Source: Candidatus Dormiibacterota bacterium | Lineage (GTDB): Bacteria > Chloroflexota > Dormibacteria > Dormibacterales > Dormibacteraceae | Assembly: GCA_955652835.1 (NCBI GenBank) | Contig: CATPBO010000007.1 | Location: forward strand, 1-34,582 | DNA: 34,582 nt | Direction: 5' to 3' | Shown: piece by piece, positions 16,804 through 31,599 of the stretch | Layout of the letters: every line of letters begins with the position of its first letter | How positions within the stretch are numbered: position 1 is the stretch's first letter | Notes under the pieces: generated by a model | What the model saw: only the letters and a program-made list of their open reading frames with translations | Databases searched by the model: none | What the model was told of the DNA's origin: nothing | Translations under genes and position numbers: made by a program

Positions 16804-18012
16804 CTAGCTCAGGCGCGCTGCCCGCAGCGCGAGATAGCGCTGCTCGGGGAGGCTCGCAGTCATCCTCGCCGCGCGCTGGTAGGACGCCCGAGCCCCGGCC
16901 AAATCCCCCGCGAGCTCGAGTAGGTGCCCTCGCACGGCCTCGAGGCGGTGGGTGTGGGCCATGCGTTCGTCGGTATCGAGGGTCCCCAGCACGGCCAGAC
17001 CGGCGCGCGGCCCGTGGACCATGGCGACTGCAACCGCCCGGTTGAGCGTGACAACCGGACCTGGCAACACCTGTTCGAGCACCTCGTACAACGCCAGGAT
17101 CTGCGGCCAGTCTGTTTCCTTGGCGCTCGGCGCTTCGTCGTGTACCGCCGCAATCGCCGCCTGCAGCTGGTACGGACCAATCGGCGCCTTGCCGAGGGTT
17201 CGGGTGAGAAGTGCCACGCCTTCGTCGATCTGGGAGGTATTCCAGAGAGCGCGCCGCTGTTCGTCGAGTGGAACGATCGAGCCGTCCTCCTCGGTTCGTG
17301 CGGCTCGCCGCGCATCGGTCAGCACCATGAGCGCGAGGAGACCGGCGACCTCGCCTTCTTCCGGCATGAGGGTGTGGAGCATGCGCGCCAGGCGGATGGC
17401 CTCGGTGGTCAGGTCGGCGCGGTTCAATGCCGCCCCGAAACTCGCTGTGTACCCCTCGTTGAAGATGAGATAGAGCACCTGCAGCACCACGCGTAGTCGG
17501 TCGGCCCGCTCCGGCTCCGGCGGGAGCTCGAATCGCATGCCCGTGTCCCTGATGCGCTCCTTGGCTCGGCTGATGCGCTGCGCCATGGTGGTTTCAGGAA
17601 CGAGGAAGGCCTTGGCGATCTCGGCAGTGGTCAATCCGCCGACCGCTCGCAGAGTGAGTGCGAGCTGCGAAGGCGCGGACAGCGACGGATGGCAGCAGAG
17701 GAACAGGACGGCGAGCGTGTCGTCATGGTTTGAAGGCTCACCCTGGACTGCCATCGCCAGCGCCGCGGTTTCCTCTCGCTTCCTGCGGGCGCTCTCACTG
17801 CGCCACTCGTCGAACAGGCGTCGGGTCGCGACGGTCAGAAGCCACGAGCTCGGGTTGTCAGGGACCCCCTCCTCCGGCCACTGCCGCGCCGCTGCCAGCA
17901 GCGCCTCCTGCACTGCGTCCTCGCACGCGTCGAACTGCCCGTGCCTTCGCACAAGATTGCCGAGGACCTGCGGCGCAAGCTCGCGCAGCAGGTCCTCGAT
18001 TCGGTCTTGCAA
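16804..18012 (-). CDS. ECF42-type RNA polymerase sigma factor with C-terminal extension
   Basis: The 402-residue protein has ECF sigma region 2 (FDACEDAVQEALLAAARQWP, then PSSWLLTVATRRLFDEWR), region 4 (LTTAEIAKAFLVPETTMAQRISRAKERI) and a 230-residue extension with YLIFNEGYTASFGAAL, EAIRLARMLHTLMPEE, GPYQLQAAIAAVHDEA and VVTLNRAVAVA, which are hallmarks of the ECF42 group (DUF6596/TPR-like extension). The group has no classical anti-sigma factor; the extension is needed for activity. The TTG start lies 2 nt after the DGPF gene stop, so it is co-transcribed and probably translationally coupled. An ECF42-type promoter precedes the pair, consistent with autoregulation. Confidence 0.93.
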   Translation of the reverse strand: MQDRIEDLLRELAPQVLGNLVRRHGQFDACEDAVQEALLAAARQWPEEGVPDNPSSWLLTVATRRLFDEWRSESARRKREETAALAMAVQGEPSNHDDTLAVLFLCCHPSLSAPSQLALTLRAVGGLTTAEIAKAFLVPETTMAQRISRAKERIRDTGMRFELPPEPERADRLRVVLQVLYLIFNEGYTASFGAALNRADLTTEAIRLARMLHTLMPEEGEVAGLLALMVLTDARRAARTEEDGSIVPLDEQRRALWNTSQIDEGVALLTRTLGKAPIGPYQLQAAIAAVHDEAPSAKETDWPQILALYEVLEQVLPGPVVTLNRAVAVAMVHGPRAGLAVLGTLDTDERMAHTHRLEAVRGHLLELAGDLAGARASYQRAARMTASLPEQRYLALRAARLS

Positions 18013-18014
18013 CC

Positions 18015-18377
18015 TCAGAACTCAGGCGGCGCGTCCATCACCCGGCGCACCTCGATCGGCACCTTGACGAACGCGACGATGCGCGATGCGATCTCGATCG
18101 CGCGCGCCTCGTTCTCGACATCGACGATCCAGTAGCCAACGAGCGATTCCTTCGCCTCCGCAAACGGTCCATCGGTCGCGACCGGCATGCCTTTCTCGAA
18201 GCGAACGGTCTTGGCCTGGCTGCCATCTGCAAGCCCTTCGGCACTGACGAGCTCGCCAGACTTCTTCAGGTCCTCGTCCAGCTTCTGCATGAACTGGATC
18301 ATCTCGAGCATCCACTCCTTGCCCATGGCTTCCAGCCCAGCTTCGGCGGACCCGAACGTCATGATCATGTACTTCAT
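18015..18377 (-). CDS. DGPF (YCII-related) protein, partner of the ECF42 sigma factor
   Basis: From the ATG at 18377 (MKYMIMTFGS) the 120-residue product has the YCII-like ferredoxin-type fold with the diagnostic TDGPFAEAKESLVGYWIVDV motif. The ORF-track start 14 codons upstream lacks support, whereas AGGAGA stands 7 nt before 18377. DGPF proteins are co-conserved with ECF42 sigma factors and co-transcribed with them. Their biochemical role is not settled; a sensory or small-molecule role is suspected. Confidence 0.93.
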   Translation of the reverse strand: MKYMIMTFGSAEAGLEAMGKEWMLEMIQFMQKLDEDLKKSGELVSAEGLADGSQAKTVRFEKGMPVATDGPFAEAKESLVGYWIVDVENEARAIEIASRIVAFVKVPIEVRRVMDAPPEF

Positions 18378-18424
18378 CGAGGTTCTCCTATTATTCGGCG
18401 CCTGAAGGGGCGCCTTCACAACTC

Positions 18425-18452
18425 GGTCGGAGCCGGCGCCTGGTTCTCGACA
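18425..18452 (-). promoter_or_regulatory. Putative ECF42-dependent promoter of the DGPF-sigma operon
   Basis: Reading the minus strand, TGTCGA (18452-18447) is followed by a 17-nt spacer and CGACC (18429-18425). The published ECF42 target motif, as I recall it, is TGTCGA in the -35 region and CG(A/T)C in the -10 region. Transcription would start near 18418, about 40 nt upstream of the DGPF ATG, giving a normal leader with the ribosome binding site. Confidence 0.7.
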
Positions 18453-18536
18453 TCTGGTGAAAAGAACCGTAGCCGCCCTTGCACCGGTCGTGACCCTTCT
18501 TCGCAGTCTTATCCCAGAGGACTTTTTGGGTGACGT

Positions 18537-18566
18537 GCGAAAGGCGCGCGAAAGGCGCGCGAAAGG
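18537..18566 (+). repeat. Short tandem repeat, 11-bp unit
   Basis: GCGAAAGGCGC occurs twice in tandem, followed by a partial third copy GCGAAAGG. The last copy runs into GGAGATTG before an ATG that opens only a four-codon frame, so it is probably not a ribosome binding site of a real gene. Confidence 0.8.
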
Positions 18567-18739
18567 AGATTGATGGCGCGTCTATGAAACCCATCCCGTT
18601 TATCCGGGCTCGAAGGTTCGACTCGACGGCCGGCGACTGCGCCTTTCGGGAGAGCTGGCGTCGGAGGAGGACCGCAGCGTATTCCTGCCGCTCATGCATG
18701 ACGACAACGCCGCGAGCGGGGCTTTACCCCCCTCAAATG

Positions 18740-18775
18740 GTGGAAAGCCCGGCCCTTGCAGGCCAGGCTTCCCAC
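18740..18775 (+). other. Long stem-loop in non-coding DNA
   Basis: The arms GTGGAAAGCCCGGCC and GGCCAGGCTTCCCAC can pair at 13 of 15 positions (A-C and C-A mismatches) around the loop CTTGCA. No T tract follows in either direction. It could be a terminator-like element, a structured RNA or the trace of a small repeat element. Confidence 0.6.
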
Positions 18776-18999
18776 TAGAGTCAACGCCCTCGGCTGCCTG
18801 ACTACCCGTCGATGGCCGAGCCCTCTGGCCGGGTCGCAGACTGCCGCTGCCCCAGCGTGCCTGCCGGGGAGGAATGGCCGTTCGGCTGCAGGGCCGCCGA
18901 GATGCGGCAAACCACCTACGCCTGCTCCGGGACATGCACGGAAAAACTCCGACATCAACTAGGCCCCGACGCCCCTGGACCGTCTACCCTTTCGGGACC

Positions 19000-19476
19000 G
19001 TGGCCATCCGCAGCGAGCTAAGCGGGTTCAGCAGCGCCCAGGCGAGGCATGCTCTGGCGGGCCTGCCGCGGTGCGACTACGAGGTCGTGATCAAGCCTCT
19101 GCGCTACCGGCGGTTCCCCCATCTGGCGGCTCTCTGCGAGTTCGAAGACCGCCGGATCTTGCTGCAGGTGCCGATCCCGTTCCACGCCTTCAAGGAGCCG
19201 GTCATCTTCGCCGCCCACCGAAAGCGCGGGCAGGGTATGCGCTTTGCCTGGGTGTCGGAGACGGTTCACTTTCGGGGGCGCCGCGACGTGCTCCGATTCC
19301 TGTACTGCCACGAGTGGATGCACTGGTACCTGCACGAGGTGCTTGGCAAGCCCTCTGCCGCCGAGACGGCGTGTGATCGTTTCGCCCTGCGGAACTTCCG
19401 GCGCCGAGTCGTCACCAGCGATGACGCGGACGAAGCGCTGGTTCGCAGGACCAGGCTCCTGGTCGCGCGAGGCTAG
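19000..19476 (+). CDS. HExxH protein, ImmA/IrrE-like or related zinc peptidase
   Basis: From the GTG at 19000 the product is 158 residues. It contains HEWMH at 104-108 and, 13 residues on, AETACDRFALRNF, which fits the gluzincin arrangement in ImmA/IrrE-like domains (HExxH, then E-x-x-A-x-x-F-A) with Glu122 as third metal ligand. The N-terminal half (FEDRRILLQVPIPFHAFKEP) looks beta-rich. The longer ORF-track start at 18874 adds a basic, low-quality segment. No signal peptide, no HTH gene alongside and no ribosome binding site are visible. SprT-like is an alternative family call. Confidence 0.65.
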   Translation: MAIRSELSGFSSAQARHALAGLPRCDYEVVIKPLRYRRFPHLAALCEFEDRRILLQVPIPFHAFKEPVIFAAHRKRGQGMRFAWVSETVHFRGRRDVLRFLYCHEWMHWYLHEVLGKPSAAETACDRFALRNFRRRVVTSDDADEALVRRTRLLVARG

Positions 19477-28636: not shown

Positions 28637-30211
28637 ATGTCTAATCGGCGGATCGTCGTCTACGACACGACGCTGCGCGACGGCGCACAAGGACCGGCTG
28701 TGTCCTTTTCCGCCTCCGACAAGCTGCGGGTCGCCCGCACGCTCGACGAGCTGGGATTCGACTATGTGGAAGGCGGCTTTCCCGGGTCCAACCCGAAGGA
28801 CGAGGAGGTATTCGCCGGCCTTCAAAGGCACCCGCTCAAGCGTGCGCGACTGGCCGCATTCGGTGCGACCCGGCGCGCCAACAGCAGCTGCGAGGACGAC
28901 GCGAATCTTGACGCGCTGGCCCGCAGTGGAGCACCGGTCTGGACGCTTGTCGGCAAGAGCGACCCGTGGCAGGTCAGCACCGTGCTGCAGACCACGACGA
29001 CCGAGAACCTGGCGATGGTCGAGGAGTCGGTTGCGTACGGCGTAGGCCTTGGCCGGGAGCTGATCTTCGACGCCGAGCACTTCTTCGATGGCTTTGCCCG
29101 CGACTCCGAGTACGCGCTCGAGGTCTGCTTGGCGGCCGCTAGAGCTGGGGCGGCGTGGATCGTCCTGTGCGACACCAATGGGGGGAGTATGCCTGCCGAA
29201 GTCCGGCAAGGCGTGGAGGCGGTGCGCCTCGCGCTTGCCGGCCTTGACCGTCCGCCTCGAGTCGGCATCCACACGCACAACGACTGCGAGCTCGCCGTGG
29301 CCAACTCGCTCGAGGGCGTGTTGGCGGGGGCGGACATGGTGCAGGGCACCATCAACGGCTACGGCGAGCGGTGCGGCAACGCGAACCTGGTCTCGGTCGT
29401 GACGAACCTGGTGGTAAAGCTCGGCTTCGAAGCTCTGCCGCCCACCTCGATCGCGCGCTTCACCGACCTGTCGCGCACTGTCGCTGAGATCGCGAACCTT
29501 GCCCTACCGCTCCAGCAGCCCTTTGTCGGCAACGGCGCCTTCGCGCACAAGGGCGGCCAGCATGTCGCGGCCGTGCTGCGACACAAGGACTCGTACCAGC
29601 ACATCGACCCAGGCGTGGTCGGCAACGAGCCGCGTGTGCTCGTCTCGGAGCTGTCGGGTCGGGGCAATGTCCTGGCCAAGGCACGCGAGTTCGGGCTGGA
29701 GCTCGACCGCGACGATCCTCAGACCCGCTGGTTAGTTCAGCATCTCAAAGAGCTCGAGCATCGCGGCTACTCGTACGAGGCCGCCGAGGCTTCGTTCGAG
29801 ATGCTGGTCCGGCGGCTGCAGCCGGGCTATAAGGCCCCCTGGACCGTCGCCGACTTCACGACCCAGGTCCGCAAGAACGGTGACTCGGTGAGTGCCGAGG
29901 CCACGGTCCGGGTCGAGGTGGCCGGGACCGTCTTTCACACTGCCGCTTCGGGAAATGGTCCTGTCAATGCGCTCGACGCCGCCCTGCGGAAAGCGCTCAG
30001 CCCGCGTTTTCCACGACTACGCGGAGTGAAGCTGCACGACTACAAGGTCCGCATCCTCGACGGGGACGCCGGCACGGCCGCGACCACTCGTGTCCTCATC
30101 GAATCGGGCAAGGGCCTCAAGCGGTGGACCACCGTCGGGTGTTCCAGCAACATCATCGAGGCGTCGCTGCTGGCGCTGGTCGATTCCCTGGAGTACGCGC
30201 AGACCGCTTAG
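28637..30211 (+). CDS. cimA: Citramalate synthase
   Basis: The 524-residue enzyme condenses pyruvate and acetyl-CoA to (R)-citramalate, the first step of the threonine-independent route to 2-oxobutyrate and isoleucine. The TIM-barrel domain begins VVYDTTLRDGAQGPAVSFS, has GGFPGSNPKDEEVF, GIHTHNDCELA (metal ligands HxH) and INGYGERCGNANL; from about 400 onward lies the LeuA-type allosteric dimer domain (RVEVAGTVFHTAASGNGPVNALDAAL). YDTTLRDG-Q and the whole length fit the CimA/TIGR00977 type rather than isopropylmalate synthase. The ORF-track TTG at 28601 lies in the terminator; the ATG at 28637 with GGGAGG is right. It overlaps the convergent regulator by 4 nt. Confidence 0.94.
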   Translation: MSNRRIVVYDTTLRDGAQGPAVSFSASDKLRVARTLDELGFDYVEGGFPGSNPKDEEVFAGLQRHPLKRARLAAFGATRRANSSCEDDANLDALARSGAPVWTLVGKSDPWQVSTVLQTTTTENLAMVEESVAYGVGLGRELIFDAEHFFDGFARDSEYALEVCLAAARAGAAWIVLCDTNGGSMPAEVRQGVEAVRLALAGLDRPPRVGIHTHNDCELAVANSLEGVLAGADMVQGTINGYGERCGNANLVSVVTNLVVKLGFEALPPTSIARFTDLSRTVAEIANLALPLQQPFVGNGAFAHKGGQHVAAVLRHKDSYQHIDPGVVGNEPRVLVSELSGRGNVLAKAREFGLELDRDDPQTRWLVQHLKELEHRGYSYEAAEASFEMLVRRLQPGYKAPWTVADFTTQVRKNGDSVSAEATVRVEVAGTVFHTAASGNGPVNALDAALRKALSPRFPRLRGVKLHDYKVRILDGDAGTAATTRVLIESGKGLKRWTTVGCSSNIIEASLLALVDSLEYAQTA

Positions 30212-31599
30212 GCGATCGCGGCCCTGGATTCGATCGCTGGCTGCCGCGTGCGCGACCCGAGCGCCAGCTTGAGGTGCTGTACCGCGCCGCCCATGTCGCC
30301 GCGTGCCTCGAGGATCTCGGCGTAGTCGGCATGAGCGCGACTCAGACGGTCCTTTGCCTGAGCCTTTTCGAGCAGCTCGAACGCGACGTGAAACTCAGCG
30401 TCCCCAGTGGCGTGATCACCACGGGCAACCGCGACGCGGCCAACCCACTCATGTGATTCAGCGATCGACGATTCTTCCGCAAGCCGCGTCGCCAGTTCAA
30501 GAGCTGCTTTCGCGTGCCGACCCGCCTCCTCCAGCTCGGACTCGGCGAGAGCCAGCTCGCTGAGACTAAGCAAGAAAGCCGCCTTGCCAGCTTCGACACG
30601 GTCCTGCTCAAGGAGGCGGACCGACCGTTCGAGGTGGCCTCGCGCTCTGACCAGCTCTCCCGCACCCAACAGCATCAACCCGAGGTTGTTTTCGGACCGG
30701 GCGAGGGAAATGCGGTCGTTGAGCGTCTCGTGGATGGCCATCGCCCGTTGGGCGTAGTGCGCCGCCTGGTTGAACTGTCCTGTCTCCTGGCAGGCCAAAC
30801 TTAGGCCGCTGTACATGAGAGACAGCCGGCGGAGGTCCTGCACCACGTCGCCGGCTTCGATCGCTTGCTCGTACGACTTGATCGCTGCTTCCCAATTGTG
30901 GTTGGTCGCGTGGACGTGCCCGAGGATGGCCAGGAGACGGCTTTCGGTGAGACTCGGGATCGGGAAGAGCGATCGACAGGTAGCCAGCGCACCCTCGGCG
31001 ATGGCGAGAGCGCCAGGGTCCTGCATCAGGTAGGCGGCGGACGCTTCGCTGCCCAGGCACTCCGCGGTCATGAGCATGTCTCCAGCCTGTTCGAAGTACG
31101 CCCGCGCGGCGGCAGCGGCCCGGCGCGCAGGCACCGGCTGCGCGAGTCTCAAGTGCGCCGTAGCCAGGAGGAACCTGATTCGCGCCGCGATCTCCGCGTC
31201 CCGCTCAGTGTCCAGCATCGTTTTGCCGGCGACGATGGCAGCGTCCGCGTCACCGGCGGTGATGAGGCGTTCGACCTCAGCCGTCCCAGCGCTTGAACGA
31301 GGTTCCATGGTGCTTGGCTGGCTCAGGAAGTAGTCGAGGGGCCTCCCCGTACGCTCGGCGATGAGCTTTAGCGTCTCCATCGAGGGCTTAGCCTTGCCGG
31401 TCTCAACGAAGAAGATGGCGGTCCGGCTGATGTCTGTGCCTGCCACCTGTCCGAGGCTGAGGCCGGCTTCCAGCCTTGCTTGCCGAGCCGTACCAGGCTT
31501 GATCTCGACGCCCAACCGGCGCCCACGACGGCCTGAGGTCGCCTTCCCATTCGCGCCTGGTGCCTCAGCAGCCGATGGGTGCGCAGACACCTCTGACAT
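30208..31599 (-). CDS. HTH-TPR transcriptional regulator, RRNPP-like
   Basis: The 463-residue protein has a disordered N-terminus, an XRE-type helix-turn-helix at about 36-93 (ARQARLEAGLSLGQVAGTDI, then SMETLKLIAERTGRPLDYFL) and then some nine TPR-like helical pairs (NWEAAIKSYEQAIEAGD, GQFNQAAHYAQRAMAIHE, ENNLGLMLLGAGELVRARGH, and so on). This order is that of RRNPP regulators, whose TPR part binds an imported signal peptide. A 32-residue exported peptide gene lies 80 nt upstream on the same strand. Length is somewhat greater than typical RRNPP members (about 280-430). It could equally be a general HTH-TPR regulator with another ligand. Confidence 0.88.
   Translation of the reverse strand: MSEVSAHPSAAEAPGANGKATSGRRGRRLGVEIKPGTARQARLEAGLSLGQVAGTDISRTAIFFVETGKAKPSMETLKLIAERTGRPLDYFLSQPSTMEPRSSAGTAEVERLITAGDADAAIVAGKTMLDTERDAEIAARIRFLLATAHLRLAQPVPARRAAAAARAYFEQAGDMLMTAECLGSEASAAYLMQDPGALAIAEGALATCRSLFPIPSLTESRLLAILGHVHATNHNWEAAIKSYEQAIEAGDVVQDLRRLSLMYSGLSLACQETGQFNQAAHYAQRAMAIHETLNDRISLARSENNLGLMLLGAGELVRARGHLERSVRLLEQDRVEAGKAAFLLSLSELALAESELEEAGRHAKAALELATRLAEESSIAESHEWVGRVAVARGDHATGDAEFHVAFELLEKAQAKDRLSRAHADYAEILEARGDMGGAVQHLKLALGSRTRQPAIESRAAIA

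Follow-up and report, generated by a model that had tools for sequence, protein, structure and literature searches.

A putative stand-alone ImmA/IrrE-like metallopeptidase of Candidatus Dormiibacterota and the hairpin element found upstream of its gene

Introduction

Proteases of the ImmA/IrrE type (Peptidase_M78, PF06114, COG2856, a group that includes CapP) typically have an XRE repressor as their partner and are frequently encoded on conjugative transposons and phages (PMC8072749), and IrrE/PprI proteins carry HTH and GAF extensions (PMC10904395). The protein considered here has in common with them the HExxH motif, an R..RF..xHE pattern ahead of it, a small cytosolic domain and a downstream glutamate in the context E-x2-[A/C]-x2-F-A, located 14 residues past the second histidine (15 in the M78 locus L061). 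It is, however, too short for the extensions of IrrE/PprI (PMC10904395), and its family departs from the XRE-paired, mobile-element-borne pattern (PMC8072749): it goes unrecognised by PF06114, has no adjoining XRE repressor and displays a conserved N-terminal half of its own (PLRYRxxPHL). Two further groups come close. Minigluzincins and the Wss1-SPRTN/SprT proteins follow the same minimal plan, a one-domain zinc protease with HExxH, yet the SprT-type proteins of the phylum use histidine as third ligand where the present family has glutamate, and no sequence-profile match links them. YgjP-like proteins (PF01863, DUF45) likewise place the HExxH helix after beta-strands, but their third ligand is a histidine in the context [N/G]H-x3-FW, a motif absent from the focal family.

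The gene lies in a stretch of 34,582 nucleotides analysed as a whole (the window), contig CATPBO010000007.1 of assembly GCA_955652835.1. Its features are collected in Table 1. If we read the locus correctly, it defines a metallopeptidase family in little-studied soil bacteria that current protein libraries overlook, and it would indicate that ImmA/IrrE-like catalytic motifs, instead of serving as the switch of a mobile element, can be kept over time in a stable chromosomal gene that is unlinked.

Table 1. Coordinates of features in the window
Feature	Position	Strand	Remarks
ECF sigma factor with DUF6596 and YCII-domain protein	16804-18419	-	between c18 (162-aa gene) and focal gene
Non-coding gap	18420-18999		580 nt, with repeats and hairpin
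Perfect 11-nt tandem repeat	18537-18566		GCGAAAGGCGC, 2.7 copies
Conserved hairpin + AACG + N16 + TAC	18737-18811	+	hairpin at about 18741-18773, GGAGGGCTCGGCCATTGCTGGCCAAGCTCCCCCA type; AACG 18783-18786; TAC 18803-18805; the one strong copy of this genome
-10-like TACCCT	18985-18999	+	9 nt before start codon; from alignment with relatives
Focal gene, HExxH + Glu metallopeptidase-like protein	19000-19476	+	158 aa; GTG start, TAG stop
HEWMH, putative zinc-binding/catalytic motif	19309-19323	+	residues 104-108; His104, Glu105, His108
AETACDRFA, putative third-ligand Glu122	19360-19386	+	residues 121-129; own helix 122-132 in model
XRE-type HTH_3 protein with TPR repeats	30211-31599	-	11 kb from focal gene

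The gene and its boundaries

Homologues that match the focal protein from residue 1, at 53-85% identity, were aligned from 16 genome loci. The first aligned codon is ATG in 15 of these, and the focal gene has GTG at the same position; protein conservation upstream, in frame with the start, was found in none of the 16. A longer reading frame opening at an ATG at position 18874 was ruled out, its N-terminal extension lacking conservation in the relatives. Judged from these alignments, we take the reading frame to be real and its bounds to be correct. Compared with relatives whose proteins are about 80% identical, the gene displays a dN of 0.11-0.13 for a dS of 0.9-1.3 (dN/dS about 0.11-0.13), most of the differences falling at third codon positions. 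This low dN relative to dS places the gene under purifying selection, and we see in it a functional gene rather than a decaying remnant.

In most relatives of family f1 the alignment has TATCCT, TACCCT or TATGCT 6-10 nt before the ATG. This -10-like element suggests a transcript that would be leaderless, or would carry a very short leader; a sigma-70 consensus scan gave no match.

Candidate active-site residues

The first-pass annotation of this DNA, made from its letters alone, had staked the proposal of an ImmA/IrrE-type peptidase on four residues, His104, Glu105, His108 and Glu122. All four turned out to be invariant in 22 of 22 diverse aligned members of the family, down to 39% identity, and HE[WFY]xH is present in every one of them. 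In the second motif C125, D126 and A129 are likewise invariant, so that E122-T-A-C125-D-R-F128-A129, when set against the E-x2-A-x2-F-A of M78, has the alanine of that motif replaced by an invariant cysteine. The spacing of the third-ligand glutamate matches that of M78 loci such as L061. The N-terminal half is strongly conserved across the family too, with an invariant patch in these members that includes L34-R35-Y36-R37, P40 and L42.

This last feature could be that of a binding module (RYRxxPHL), and, neither substrate nor partner being evident, we may ask whether the protein is a metal-binding scaffold or sensor that has lost proteolysis. We hold this to be improbable: Glu105, the general base, is as invariant as the metal ligands, which would be unexpected in the absence of catalysis.

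Family assignment and predicted fold

Searches of Pfam, NCBIfam and PHROGs returned no convincing match for any member searched; PF06114 matched none of 17 members, nor anything in the genome itself at E <= 0.001, and PDB sequences compared with the family profiles yielded nothing credible. The family is unnamed and missed by current protein libraries. In a profile-profile comparison with HHalign, the family (A3) aligned with M78 proteins of the same class at a probability of 73% (P 3e-5), through the HExxH and Glu/FA motifs and over only about 33 columns, while reversed and 20 column-shuffled profiles, used as controls, all remained at or below 0.6%.

The small HExxH domain following a beta-sheet would also fit a protease of the SprT/Wss1 or YgjP type, acting for example on DNA-protein crosslinks. 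The HExxH helix does resemble that of YgjP somewhat (HHalign 31%, limited to this helix), and Foldseek gave weak matches to SprT-like viral structures (E 0.76-1.4). Yet the third ligand is a histidine in the phylum's SprT-like and YgjP-like proteins, and it is absent here, where the invariant Glu122 is found instead; the PF10263 and PF01863 models, moreover, do not match the focal family. We therefore regard an assignment of this kind as quite improbable. The YgjP match of the genome itself is a separate gene on another contig.

AlphaFold models built from two alignments agree with each other (pLDDT 89 and 91.3, pTM 0.85 and 0.86). They place strands between residues 28 and 91, forming a beta-sheet, then the HExxH helix at 94-114, and Glu122 at the beginning of a further helix. 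Among viral predicted structures (Foldseek, BFVD) Bacillus phage PBS1 supplied the best match, an IrrE N-terminal-like protein (probability 0.98, E 6.6e-3, TM 0.42). Against the PDB no solved structure reached a significant E-value with either of the two models; CapP, an IrrE-like protease, ranked sixth and fourth (TM 0.26-0.28, with E 1.1 for the match at TM 0.28; not significant), and TM-scores against IrrE-like structures span only 0.26-0.42. The structure prediction and fold comparison called for at the outset gave a confident model, with an IrrE-like protein as its top viral match and no significant counterpart among solved structures.

Because sequence profiles, third-ligand spacing and the best viral-structure match concur, these comparisons point to an ImmA/IrrE-like protein rather than to SprT or YgjP; because no solved structure matches significantly, we keep the label 'ImmA/IrrE-like' and do not claim proven membership. 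The peptidase type first proposed is in this way sustained by the motifs, their spacing, the invariant residues, the M78 profile score and the standing of IrrE-like proteins and CapP near the top of the structural matches, while formal membership of PF06114 is not.

Distribution and inheritance

Within the class of the window's genome (Dormibacterota relatives), a profile search found the family in 46 of 110 genomes; these belong to f1 and f4, while f2 and f3 have no listed match. Extended to 400 genomes sampled over the phylum, the search found the family in 32, adding families f32 and f45; where relatives are named, they are MAGs labelled 'Chloroflexi' or 'Candidatus Dormiibacterota'. Genus g2 usually has a second, more diverged copy. 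One same-genus genome, G097, has a second copy truncated before the HExxH motif (locus L058, 4683-5216, minus strand), and we read the paralogue as decaying in G097, whereas genus g2 keeps an intact second copy.

How such a gene came to stand alone may be argued in two ways. It could be the orphaned antirepressor of a prophage or conjugative element, of the ImmA type, whose XRE partner was lost; this would account for the HExxH and ExxxxxFA motifs and for the long non-coding gap upstream, with its repeats, and ImmA-type proteins are indeed often located on mobile elements (PMC8072749). The distribution speaks otherwise. The gene is under purifying selection and present in many genomes of f1, f4 and f32. 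In a maximum-likelihood tree its sequences group by taxonomic family with the minimum possible number of changes, as expected for vertical inheritance, and its neighbourhood is partly common to relatives. A scan of viral contigs with exact conserved peptides, which, like the scan of genome contigs, is blind to distant relatives, found no member of the family, and no XRE neighbour occurs in any relative examined. The orphan origin is thus very improbable. The mobile or remnant origin at which the first reading of this DNA had hinted does not survive these observations, a gene tree in line with taxonomy and the part-conserved neighbourhood arguing against it.

We may therefore return to the reading that we prefer, and that we hold, taken as a whole, to be likely: the protein would be a small gluzincin-type peptidase of the cytosol that depends on zinc, closest to the ImmA/IrrE catalytic domain and too diverged for the models of that family; its gene would be of long standing in the chromosomes of some Dormibacterota and related Chloroflexota, where it is inherited vertically and stands alone.

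Genomic neighbourhood

In the window the gene has a YCII-domain protein and an ECF sigma factor upstream and a membrane-like hypothetical protein downstream. No XRE gene adjoins it, here or in any relative locus examined, so that the lack of an adjacent HTH gene, first remarked in this window, extends to the family loci. The genomes of the relatives are incomplete MAGs, in which a simple script based on GC3 predicted the neighbours, some gaps and starts being approximate. In genus g2 the gene mostly has a short Gly-zipper-like gene in divergent orientation, across a gap of 42-64 nt, and the gene that follows it is convergent and encodes a DUF72 or a membrane protein; in f32 the focal gene adjoins an anthranilate synthase component I gene, and in f4 it is found near AAA ATPases. 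Common to the window and to relatives are c5, c6, c8, c9 and c1 downstream, and c24, c25 and c18 upstream.

In locus L008, of the same genus, c18 lies directly upstream of the focal homologue, at 170 nt, and the sigma-factor/YCII pair of the window (Table 1) was apparently inserted between the two. Because this pair intervenes where L008 has c18 directly upstream, the 580-nt gap is best seen as a local peculiarity of the window's genome.

No XRE regulator was noticed in the window apart from the XRE-TPR protein listed in Table 1, which is a possible candidate substrate of the focal protein.

Proposed mode of action

Invariance and the structural model together suggest that a single zinc ion would be bound by His104, His108 and Glu122, and that Glu105 would activate the water molecule. 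The enzyme would then cleave a specific cytosolic protein, the N-terminal beta-sheet (PLRYRxxPHL) helping to bind this target, which would be encoded elsewhere and reached in trans. As to what the target is, we may only speculate: of all single classes an unlinked regulator would be the likeliest, though at well under even odds. Were such a distant regulator cut as DdrO is by IrrE, we would have a testable stress-response protease outside Deinococcus.

The upstream element

The non-coding gap of 580 nt with repeats and a hairpin, reported at the outset, is indeed present. Its hairpin belongs to a longer conserved element, which constitutes a separate, checkable novelty. The exact 23-nt core of the hairpin has one copy in each of 5 genomes of the class, and was not found in the remaining genomes of the class with one or two mismatches allowed. 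A covariance model retrieved the element from 23 f1 genomes, each with a single strong copy in addition to weak ones; wherever element and gene share a contig (21 genomes), the element precedes the gene by 38-1856 nt and has the same orientation. Compensatory changes mark the stem: 97% of its cells are paired, and double-change cells number 11, where shuffles give 3.9. All 21 aligned copies have, after the hairpin, AACG, then a spacer of variable sequence (mean identity 36%) but constant length, 16 bases in every copy, and then TAC; AACG was included in the model that retrieved the copies and TAC was not. The copies examined include those of L161, L039, L159, L012, L005, L003, L013 and L011, among others. 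In genera g10 and g12, AACG-N16-TAC stands directly before the focal start codon. The element has the appearance of a promoter joined to a hairpin, and some of the g2 copies of the hairpin could also terminate the gene of the opposite strand.

Several other identities were considered and rejected. A HEARO/omega-RNA or other known RNA was discarded: the upstream region has no Rfam match at the gathering threshold, and relaxing the threshold brought up a single opposite-strand match, at the level of chance. A short leader peptide encoded within the hairpin (MVESPALAGQASH) was also rejected, neither its start codon nor its frame being conserved. A dispersed repeat is at odds with the copy numbers just given. 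A simple terminator would leave the fixed AACG-N16-TAC unexplained, the T-runs of the minus strand being present in some g2 copies and absent in others. Finally, tblastn matches that might have revealed a protein remnant in the gap were weak, none of them convincing.

The link between hairpin element and focal gene is positional only, since the element is missing from several f1 genomes that do have the gene (G089, G090, G096, G097, G098, G100, G102), and the reverse is the case in G103. The most ambitious reading of the locus, that of a distinct, vertically inherited gluzincin family so far restricted to Chloroflexota (Dormibacterota included), acting as a stress-switch protease with no linked repressor and with its gene tied to a new hairpin-plus-promoter element (AACG-N16-TAC) unknown to Rfam, is one that we consider unlikely in its entirety. 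The same gap also holds, ahead of the hairpin, the perfect tandem repeat listed in Table 1.
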